Assembly (NCBI GenBank): GCA_021845725.1
Contig: JAJZVL010000015.1
Coordinates: 1-51,006, forward strand
Length of the DNA: 51,006 bases
DNA from: Actinomycetes bacterium
GTDB lineage: Bacteria > Actinomycetota > Acidimicrobiia > Acidimicrobiales > RAAP-2
Reading direction: 5' to 3'
Shown here piece by piece: positions 4,314-31,058 of this stretch; the stretch's first letter is position 1; every line of letters starts with the position of its first letter. Both the position numbers and the translations under genes were made by a program. The notes beneath the pieces were generated by a model that was not told where the DNA came from, searched no databases, and worked only from the letters and a program-made list of their open reading frames with translations.

Positions 4314-5477
4314 GTGACCCCGCCTCGTCGGCACCTGCTGGTCACCAACGACTTCCCACCCAAGGTGGGGGGCATCCAGGCCTACCTGTGGGAGCTCTGG
4401 CGGCGCCTCGACCCTCAGAGCTTCGTCGTGCTCACCGCCCGCTCGGATCCGCACGCCGAGGCGTTCGACCTCGCCGCGGCGAAGCAGGGGATCAGGATCG
4501 AGCGCGTGCCGGGCCGGCTCGTGTACTTCCCCACGCCAGCTGTCCGCTCAGCCGTCACGTCGCTCGCGTCCGAGATCGGTGCGTCGCTCGTGCTGCTCGA
4601 CCCGGTGCTGCCGCTCGGGCTCCTCGGCCCACGGCTCGACATCCCCTACGGCGTCGTGCTGCACGGCGCGGAGGTCGCCGTGCCCACGCGGCTCCCCGGC
4701 GCGCGCGGGATGGTCGCTCGAGTGCTCGCGGGCGCCTCCCTGGTCGTGTCGGCAGGCCGGTACCCGAGGGCCCAGGCAACCCGTGCGCTCGACAGGAACG
4801 CGGGTGCGAGCCCGCGCCACGTCGAGGTGCCTCCGGGCGTGGACTGCGTGAGCTTCTGCCCGCTCGGTGCCACCGAGCGAGACGCCGCGCGAGTGGCGCT
4901 GGGGCTTCCGGTTGGTGCGCCGGTCGTTGCAAGCGTGAGCCGGCTCGTTGCGCGTAAGGGCATGGACGTCCTCATCGAGGCCGTGAGCCGGCTGCGGCCT
5001 TCGTACCCGGATCTCGTCCTCGCAATCGCAGGAAGCGGGCGAGAGGCGCACCGTCTCGAGGCGCTGTCGCGGCGCTCCGGAGCCCCGGTGCGCTTCCTCG
5101 GACGGGTGAGCGAAGCGGACAAGCGTGCGCTCCTTGCCTGTGCAGACGTCTTCGCGATGGCCTGTCGCAGCCGTTGGATGGGGCTCGAAGAGGAGGGCTT
5201 CGGCATCGTCTTCCTCGAAGCGGCCGCCGCGGGGACGCCACAGGTGGCTGGCGACAGCGGAGGCGCAGCCGAGGCCGTGGAGGACGGGGTGACCGGGGTG
5301 GTCGTTGAGAAGCCGCACGACCCGGGCGCAGTCGCGCAGGCGATCAGGCGCCTCCTCTCTGACGAAGACCGACGCAGGCGCATGGGTGTCGCCGCGCGTG
5401 AGCGGGCATGCCGCAGCTTCGACTACACAGTGCTTGCGGGAAGGTTGGCCGCGGCCCTCTCGGAAGTGCAAGGCTGA
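4314..5477 (+). CDS. GT4 family glycosyltransferase, PimB'-like mannosyltransferase
   Basis: This 387-residue GT-B glycosyltransferase opens with LLVTNDFPPKVGGIQAYL, the nucleotide-sugar family 4 N-terminal motif characteristic of the PimB'/PimB-like mannosyltransferases that add the second mannose of phosphatidylinositol mannosides. LHGAEVAVP near residue 115 and the C-terminal donor-binding EEEGFGIVFLEAAAAGTP (about 293-310, the EX7E motif) are also present. The likely donor is GDP-mannose and the acceptor a phosphatidylinositol mannoside on the inner membrane face; this is family knowledge, not proven here. GTG 4314 is chosen because it begins right at the conserved N-terminus. The SRPBCC gene follows after 38 bases. 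Confidence 0.85.
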   Translation: MTPPRRHLLVTNDFPPKVGGIQAYLWELWRRLDPQSFVVLTARSDPHAEAFDLAAAKQGIRIERVPGRLVYFPTPAVRSAVTSLASEIGASLVLLDPVLPLGLLGPRLDIPYGVVLHGAEVAVPTRLPGARGMVARVLAGASLVVSAGRYPRAQATRALDRNAGASPRHVEVPPGVDCVSFCPLGATERDAARVALGLPVGAPVVASVSRLVARKGMDVLIEAVSRLRPSYPDLVLAIAGSGREAHRLEALSRRSGAPVRFLGRVSEADKRALLACADVFAMACRSRWMGLEEEGFGIVFLEAAAAGTPQVAGDSGGAAEAVEDGVTGVVVEKPHDPGAVAQAIRRLLSDEDRRRRMGVAARERACRSFDYTVLAGRLAAALSEVQG

Positions 5478-29620: not shown

Positions 29621-29941
29621 GTGGGGATCCGGATCTTCACAGCGAGCGTGGCCGGCGCGGGGGCCGCGGTCGCCGAGCGCGCGGGTATTGAAGCCGACGC
29701 GGTCGTCGCAGTCCCCTACAACGTCGTGCTGTGGAACGACCCCGTGACGCTGATGGAGGTCGTGGTGCGAGCGCTGAAGAAGGTCTTCGGCTACAGCTCC
29801 GAGAAGGCGGAACTGTTGATGCTCACGGCGCACCGTGAAGGCAAGGCCGTCGTGTGGACCGGTGAGCGTGAACGCGCCGTGCGCCACTGCCTCGAGCTCG
29901 GCACCTACGGGCTGCAGTCCACCGTGGCCCGAGCGACGTGA
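29621..29941 (+). CDS. clpS: ATP-dependent Clp protease adaptor protein ClpS
   Basis: This 106-residue protein is a ClpS adaptor, which delivers N-degron substrates (Leu, Phe, Tyr, Trp N-termini) to ClpC/ClpA-ClpP. YNVVLWNDPVTLMEVVVRAL (about residues 32-51) contains the conserved NDxxT(F/L)xxVV core, with the Asn-Asp pair that contacts the N-terminal amino group, and LLMLTAHREGKAVVWTGERE carries the conserved His-Glu-Gly loop. The first 25 residues are a short Ala-rich extension typical of the disordered N-terminus. Its TGA overlaps the GTG of the DUF2017-macro gene, so the two are translationally coupled. GTG start supported by the -10 at 29609. Confidence 0.93.
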   Translation: MGIRIFTASVAGAGAAVAERAGIEADAVVAVPYNVVLWNDPVTLMEVVVRALKKVFGYSSEKAELLMLTAHREGKAVVWTGERERAVRHCLELGTYGLQSTVARAT

Positions 29942-31005
29942 CGCGACGTCGGCGCGTGGCGTTCCAGCGCTTGGACGACGGTCGGATCGCCGTGCGCCTG
30001 CCCGCGGCGGTGCGCAGCTTCGTGGCCGCCGCGGCAGAGCGACTGCACGAGGTCGGGATGGCGCCTGGTTCCCCCGGGTTCGCCCGCCTGTTCGGCCGGA
30101 TCGACGAGACCGCGGACGCGGACGACCCGGCGTACGTCCTGGCTCGCCAGCTCGCGCTGGACGAGGTGGTGGCCGCGGTGGCGACGAGCGCCGAGAAGTC
30201 GGTGATCGATCCGGACGAGGCGGAGGCCTGGCTCGCCGTGCTCGGGATGACCCTGTCGCGGCGCGCAGAGGAGCTCGGGCTGCGAACCGAGGAGGACCGG
30301 GCAGGGATCGCCCGAGAAGACGAGGCGGTCATCCGCGTCGTCTACGCCCTTCAAGCCGCTCTGATCGACGCGTTGGACGAAGCCGGGCACACACGACGAC
30401 GGCGCGCGTCCAAGGCGCGTAGCGCAGAGGCGGCGCAGGCGCGAGGTGTCGATGTCGACGGTGTCACGATCGAGCTCGACGCTGGCGACATCGCGCGCCA
30501 GCGCGACATGGATGCGGTGGTCAATGCGGCCAATGCTCAGCTGTTGCCCGGCGGCGGCGTTGCCGGAGCGATCCACCGTGCGGCCGGCCCCGGACTCGCC
30601 GAGGAGTGCCGGCCGCTTGCTCCCATCGCCCCAGGCGAGGCGGTCATCACGAGCGGACACGGGCTGCCGAACCCCTACGTCATCCATTGCCTCGGACCGG
30701 TGTACGGCGTCGACCGACCCGCAGACGAGCTCCTCGCCGCCTGCTACCGCCACTCGCTCGAGCTCGCGGACCGCCATGGTCTGAGGTCGGTGGCGTTCCC
30801 TGCCATCTCGACGGGCGCGTTCGGCTACCCGATGGATCGCGCCGCCGAGGTCGCGCTCGGCACGGTGCTGAAGACGGCCGGTCGGCTCCAGTCAGTTCGC
30901 AAGGTGCGCTTCGTGCTGGCCGACCAGGGCGCCCTCCACGTCCATCGTGAGGTGCTGCAACACCTCCTCGAGCGTCGAGCGCGGCGTGCGCCTCCGGGGA
31001 CTTGA
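29938..31005 (+). CDS. DUF2017 domain fused to a C-terminal macro (ADP-ribose-binding) domain
   Basis: This 355-residue protein has two parts in one uninterrupted frame. Residues 1-150 match DUF2017, a helical domain of unknown function that usually follows clpS in actinobacteria as a separate gene (FQRLDDGRIAVRLP, SAEKSVIDPDEAEAWLAVLG). A basic hinge (HTRRRRASKARSAEAAQARG, about 145-165) leads to a macro domain at about 170-350: DAVVNAANAQLLPGGG near 192-207, VAGAIHRAAGPGLAEECR, and ISTGAFGYPMDRAAEVAL near 289-306. These are the ADP-ribose-binding loops of MacroD/ALC-type domains, which remove or read ADP-ribose. Coupling to clpS by the GTGA overlap suggests a role connected with Clp proteolysis. 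The last seven codons lie inside the antisense tRNA-Lys gene. Confidence 0.88.
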   Translation: MTRRRRVAFQRLDDGRIAVRLPAAVRSFVAAAAERLHEVGMAPGSPGFARLFGRIDETADADDPAYVLARQLALDEVVAAVATSAEKSVIDPDEAEAWLAVLGMTLSRRAEELGLRTEEDRAGIAREDEAVIRVVYALQAALIDALDEAGHTRRRRASKARSAEAAQARGVDVDGVTIELDAGDIARQRDMDAVVNAANAQLLPGGGVAGAIHRAAGPGLAEECRPLAPIAPGEAVITSGHGLPNPYVIHCLGPVYGVDRPADELLAACYRHSLELADRHGLRSVAFPAISTGAFGYPMDRAAEVALGTVLKTAGRLQSVRKVRFVLADQGALHVHREVLQHLLERRARRAPPGT

Positions 31006-31058
31006 ACCCCGAACCTGCGGATTAAGAGTCCGTTGCTCTGCCATTGAGCTAGAGGCGC
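30987..31058 (-). tRNA. tRNA-Lys (anticodon CTT)
   Basis: The minus strand folds into a complete cloverleaf: acceptor GCGCCTC paired with GAGGCGC, D-arm GCTC/GAGC, anticodon stem ACGGA/TCCGC-like with loop CTCTTAA (anticodon CTT, lysine), and T-arm CGGGG-TTCAAGT-CCCCG. The discriminator base is A and CCA is not encoded. Its 3' half overlaps the last codons of the DUF2017-macro gene on the opposite strand. Confidence 0.95.

Follow-up and report, generated by a model that had tools for sequence, protein, structure and literature searches.

Actinobacterial JAB/cysteine synthase operons contain ClpS together with an 'uncharacterized helical protein', according to the available portion of the study by Iyer and others (2006; PMC1779556). 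This helical protein is probably DUF2017 (PF09438). In our survey, clpS was present within ~1.5 kb flanks in all 29 DUF2017 loci from across the phylum. We know of no function for DUF2017, and no mention of it by that name was found in the literature searched; any partner would therefore be a clue. The second relevant group consists of the MacroD-type macrodomains (OiMacroD, E. coli YmdB, MacroD1/2). In the part of PMC5413906 that was available, the D40A mutant of OiMacroD lost 86% of its catalytic efficiency and kept some activity, and Af1521, which has a natural Ala at this Asp position, was reported to be active; loss of the Asp thus need not abolish activity. Papers on macrodomains together with ClpS, N-degrons or nicotinate phosphoribosyltransferase (NAPRTase), judged by title and start of abstract, did not describe the arrangement presented below. 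It was likewise not described in the examined parts of PMC9503650, a paper that contains 'macro domain' 39 times and may hold more.

The window (the whole 51,006-nucleotide stretch of DNA analysed) contains clpS followed by a 355-codon frame at 29938-31005 (+), whose GTG first codon overlaps the clpS stop as GTGA. The locus has the following features:

29621-29941 (+), clpS; 106 aa counted from the GTG start given by the gene finder; Pfam ClpS E 5.2e-21, residues 32-95.
29938-30396 (+), predicted DUF2017-like half, codons 1-153; PF09438 19.6 bits for this part alone, hhalign E 1e-15, shuffle control.
30382-30456 (+), basic linker, codons 149-173; DNA alignment, dN/dS 1.2, pLDDT <50 at residues 151-166.
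30448-30972 (+), macrodomain, codons 171-345; Pfam Macro E 2.6e-41, structure model, Foldseek.
30976-31005 (+), C-terminal read-through tail, codons 347-355 plus stop; both relatives stop earlier at TGA.
30986-31058 (-), tRNA-Lys (CTT); ARAGORN.

These results confirmed the 355-residue gene overlapping clpS, and the ClpS and macrodomain identities, that had been claimed in the original prediction. The Pfam score of ClpS was 74.6 bits against a cut-off of 23; with the NCBIfam equivalog it was 72.3, under the cut-off of 86. At the tail of the fusion gene, the window has CGA where the relatives G004 and G012 have TGA, and the last 9 codons overrun that position; the actual stop (TGA) and the last bases lie antisense to tRNA-Lys. 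ATG, GTG and TTG are absent between codons 146 and 191. Codon 191 already lies beyond the first strand of the macro fold, and a separate macrodomain product is therefore hardly possible in the window. The GC content of the window is 0.70. Among its 183 long open frames, many of which are non-genes, 126 remain open for 25 codons beyond their own stop and 49 for 150 codons; joining after loss of a stop is therefore cheap at such high GC.

The first half had been assigned to DUF2017, and this assignment held at the level of family profiles and failed at the curated threshold for a single sequence. With the whole 355-residue protein as query, no DUF2017 match was obtained in Pfam up to E 10, and the PF09438 profile gave 0 matches in the window's own genome. 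Residues 1-153 alone scored 19.6 bits (E 0.0011), which did not reach the curated cut-off of 25 bits. PF09438 matched 15 of the 19 members of the family alignment (genus and family, window included) at E<=1, with a best value of 3.1e-6. When 20 window-type proteins were compared with 29 DUF2017 proteins of the phylum by hhalign, 135 columns were aligned with an E of 1e-15 and a probability of 98.6. The window-family profile gave a best score of 40.7 bits on the 29 DUF2017 proteins, and the shuffle maximum was 11.1 (2550 reported scores), a value exceeded by only 16 of the 29 real proteins. In the reverse direction, shuffled sequences reached at most 9.2 (1892 scores), and 15 of 20 proteins scored higher, the window protein among them at 14.5. 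The profile-profile match and the sub-threshold Pfam score suggest that the first ~150 residues are a divergent relative of DUF2017 and no member by the curated threshold.

The model of this half was computed from two sequences and had a pLDDT of 62.6; the half is probably mostly helical, as read from this low-confidence model. In the model of the full-length protein, pLDDT was also low over the first half, where there were no alignment partners. Foldseek gave a haemoglobin as the best match of this half, with an E of 0.044 that is not meaningful, and comparison of the window-family profile with solved structures gave nothing under E 0.2. The locus agrees with the operons in the available portion of PMC1779556 in that a DUF2017-type gene, mostly helical in our low-confidence model, accompanies clpS. 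It differs from them in that the window protein is very divergent and joined to a macrodomain, and in that, by eye, no JAB or cysteine synthase gene lies near the locus.

The second half matched Pfam Macro over residues 195-306. No further Macro match was obtained in the window genome, and G004 and G012 likewise have one each (the three genomes are 89-93% complete). The best NCBIfam macro model was O-acetyl-ADP-ribose deacetylase (181.9, below the cut-off of 200). A macro fold with NAAN and with GxGVxGAIH and STGxxGYP loops of the MacroD type was found, and pLDDT was mostly 88-99 over residues 171-350, dropping to 80 and 70 for the blocks of ten residues in which the two loops lie. The closest solved fold was OiMacroD (5l9k; Foldseek E 3.9e-17), and the phmmer matches included DR_2288 (9w48; E 4.6e-37) and MacroD1 (3.3e-36). 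The motifs that had been described as intact macro loops are all present (NAAN, 196-199; GGGVAGAIH, 205-213; STGAFGYP, 291-298). However, loop 1 departs from the intact MacroD form: Ala209 (codon 30562-30564) takes the position of the MacroD Asp (GGVDGAIH), and the catalytic Asp is therefore absent. The window protein thus shares fold and motifs with OiMacroD, YmdB and MacroD1/2 but has the same letter at this position as the OiMacroD D40A mutant (available portion of PMC5413906). A natural Ala is also found there in Af1521 and TTHA0132, as far as that portion of the paper describes them; the similarity of the window protein to these two is lower than to MacroD1 or YmdB. These features are consistent with a module that would bind ADP-ribose or hydrolyse ADP-ribosyl or O-acetyl-ADP-ribose groups.

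We then compared this position among 132 macro loci (150 loci with a macro match, 18 repeats omitted) and found Ala in 89, Asp in 41 and Cys in 2. In a quick tree, a branch with support 100 set all 89 Ala rows, which come from many phyla, apart from the others. As 80 of the macro loci had been picked for their similarity to the window protein, the result describes a clade and is no census. Neighbouring genes of the Ala-type clade were examined in 79 loci (the similarity-picked set minus L125) for five families, which were chosen after viewing the next frames and identified by Pfam on examples. These loci lean to Gammaproteobacteria, and related species are therefore counted repeatedly. NAPRTase was encoded on the strand of the macro gene in 12 of the 79, 11 of them within 133 bases. 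It is the commonest identified same-strand neighbour, not the commonest of all. A nicotinamidase-like (isochorismatase-family) gene was found in 7 loci, DUF427 in 6, histone-deacetylase-like genes in 5 and endonuclease V in 2. In a MAG of Anaerolineaceae, UBA7927 (L162:5001-6896), the Ala-type macrodomain and NAPRTase form one in-frame fusion, followed by a nicotinamidase-like gene; L176 begins like this macro-NAPRTase gene and ends at a contig edge. L162 resembles the window in that a member of the same clade is joined to another gene's product, and differs in that the partner is NAPRTase.

Several further arrangements were seen. In Halomonadaceae (L174, L182, L185, L189) a histone-deacetylase-like gene lies ~100 bases after the Ala-type macro gene, and in the gammaproteobacterial L146, L172, L183, L193 and L201 a DUF427 gene follows it directly. 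In neighbour clusters of 19 and 14 loci, proteins that by eye resemble TRAP-transporter subunits are encoded close to the macro gene but on the other strand; among the loci listed, most are from Halomonadaceae and Marinobacter (e.g., L156, L161, L165, L182, L185, L186, L189 and L191). Long antisense frames at high GC interfered in part with this clustering of neighbour genes. In L105 (G047:C2) the macro gene lies at 4609-5109 on the minus strand, and SmpB, JAB peptidase, cysteine synthase and glutamate racemase-like genes are found within ~4 kb (by eye). This set resembles the clpS-carrying operon of other actinobacteria in the available portion of PMC1779556, here without clpS; no clpS or DUF2017 was detected within the 20 kb examined around the G047 macro gene.

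Among 204 loci, a macro gene together with clpS or DUF2017 was observed only in the window genome (G000), G004 and G012. Viral contigs were also considered as carriers, and none of 12 pattern matches was confirmed. The NAPRTase and nicotinamidase-like neighbours, the L162 fusion and the restriction of the clpS association to three genomes make this macro clade look like a transferred NAD/ADP-ribose gene that occasionally joins its neighbours.

The arrangement was compared in 13 genomes of the genus, window included. clpS and the DUF2017-like gene adjoin in all of them, and a macro gene lies behind the DUF2017-like gene in three (G000, G004, G012), with tRNA-Lys next. It was not found at this place in the other ten, for which 1,066 to 6,389 bases were covered in nine and 333 in G011. 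In G005, the genes flanking the window locus were matched on both sides (by eye, the methyltransferase, polysaccharide deacetylase and ABC transporter genes are common to both), no macro gene is present, and only 29 bases separate the stop of the DUF2017-like gene from tRNA-Lys. Macro genes of the same kind occur on other contigs in G003 and G006. Judged by gene order and not by a species tree, insertion of the macro gene here is more probable than its loss from the other species.

The junction is open in two of the three genomes in which both genes lie side by side, the window and G004. In G012, the DUF2017-like product ends in ...EPEHA followed by a TGA stop, at which position the window has CGA, and an 18-base insertion relative to the window and G004 follows; both lie within the linker stretch. 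dS was 0.23-0.25 between G000 and G012, 0.30-0.38 between G012 and G004, and 0.39-0.43 between G000 and G004. The split G012 (a MAG) is thus the nearest relative of the fused window, having the lowest dS with it. Yet it is split; on three taxa, this may mean that the fusion came first and was undone in G012, or that stops disappeared on two occasions. In 61 genomes and 397 genomes of the order (overlapping draws), no other match spanning both halves was seen among the matches listed. Matches reaching to the left of the macrodomain in G049, G425, G047 and G079 contained only the macrodomain in the stretches examined; others, such as those in G381 and G118, begin near residue 137-142.

Our preferred explanation, with a probability of roughly 0.72, is that a transferred NAD/ADP-ribose gene recently became joined by read-through to its DUF2017-like neighbour, the two halves keeping separate jobs. 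In an ancestor of the three species, a stand-alone, often transferred Ala-type MacroD-like gene would have landed behind the clpS/DUF2017-like pair and before tRNA-Lys. In the window species and G004, where no stop intervenes, the frames would meet to give one two-domain polypeptide; in G012 the two would be made from separate genes. The DUF2017-like half would keep its presumed ClpS-linked job, and a loose linker would hold the co-expressed halves together, the macrodomain not steering ClpS. dN/dS in the three pairs was 0.21, 0.14 and 0.16 for the DUF2017-like half and 0.20, 0.14 and 0.18 for the macro half; the linker gave 1.2 between G000 and G004 (21.0 nonsynonymous and 8.0 synonymous changes in 25 codons, a small sample). 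Each half is thus under similar constraint in the fused and the split genes, whereas the linker is unconstrained. The joining has the look of a chance outcome of gene order, recent and unstable, and is no proof of a new signalling link. On the other hand, with only three genomes to judge by, fusion may be the ancestral condition, maintained by selection, and G012 the exception; and the fusion is fixed in the window, which has no usual start for a separate macrodomain. The fused form is no spare copy either, since it holds the sole macrodomain found in the window genome.

The original prediction took the fusion as a Rosetta-stone link between ADP-ribose and the N-degron pathway. Such a functional fusion in this lineage, whose macrodomain would deliver ADP-ribosylated proteins to the ClpS/ClpC/ClpP N-degron route or act as its sensor of ADP-ribose or O-acetyl-ADP-ribose, would agree with the overlap with clpS and with a frame unbroken in two species, one of which, the window, offers no separate macro start; it would also agree with constraint on both halves and with the location of the sole macrodomain of each of the three genomes at this place. 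We nevertheless consider it unlikely, since the nearest relative is split, the linker is unconstrained, the sampled macro clade elsewhere accompanies genes other than clpS, and 10 of the 13 genus genomes have no macro gene at the place (333 bases covered in G011). No macrodomain was found within ~1.5 kb flanks of any of the 29 DUF2017 loci across the phylum. When sister species differ in whether the junction is open, and the halves are under similar constraint, the fusion is weak Rosetta-stone evidence, and the N-degron link is unsupported. Also unlikely is the related idea that the ClpS/DUF2017 operon took up an ADP-ribose-binding module, the sole macrodomain found in these genomes, and tethered it to the ClpS partner, whereby Clp proteolysis would receive ADP-ribosylated proteins or ADP-ribose metabolites, with G012 achieving the same through two co-expressed proteins. 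The observation on the sequence was partly confirmed, and its first interpretation partly supported.

An assembly or sequencing error in the window, hiding a true pair with a junction stop as in G012, is improbable. The TGA at the G012 junction and the CGA codons of the window, both there and at the C-terminal stop, are what such an error would leave; however, the junction is also open in G004, a different species, with other junction codons, and the window lacks a start codon for a separate macro gene as well. The claim of an unbroken frame and a real joining therefore stands, the open junction in G004 arguing against sequencing error, even though a search of the two relatives with both genes for a junction stop gave none in G004 and a TGA in G012. 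Very improbable is a decaying macro half that is a functionless passenger at the locus: the window misses both the junction stop and the macro-end stop, and the MacroD Asp is absent, but dN/dS of this half is 0.14-0.20 in all three pairs, NAAN and both loops are kept, Ala is the rule in the clade, and the three genomes yielded no second macrodomain.

As a clue to the function of DUF2017, the fusion is weak, because the joint differs even between sister species. A more useful by-product is the widely spread Ala-type macro clade, which is linked in some lineages to NAPRTase and a nicotinamidase-like gene; these ties make its substrate testable.
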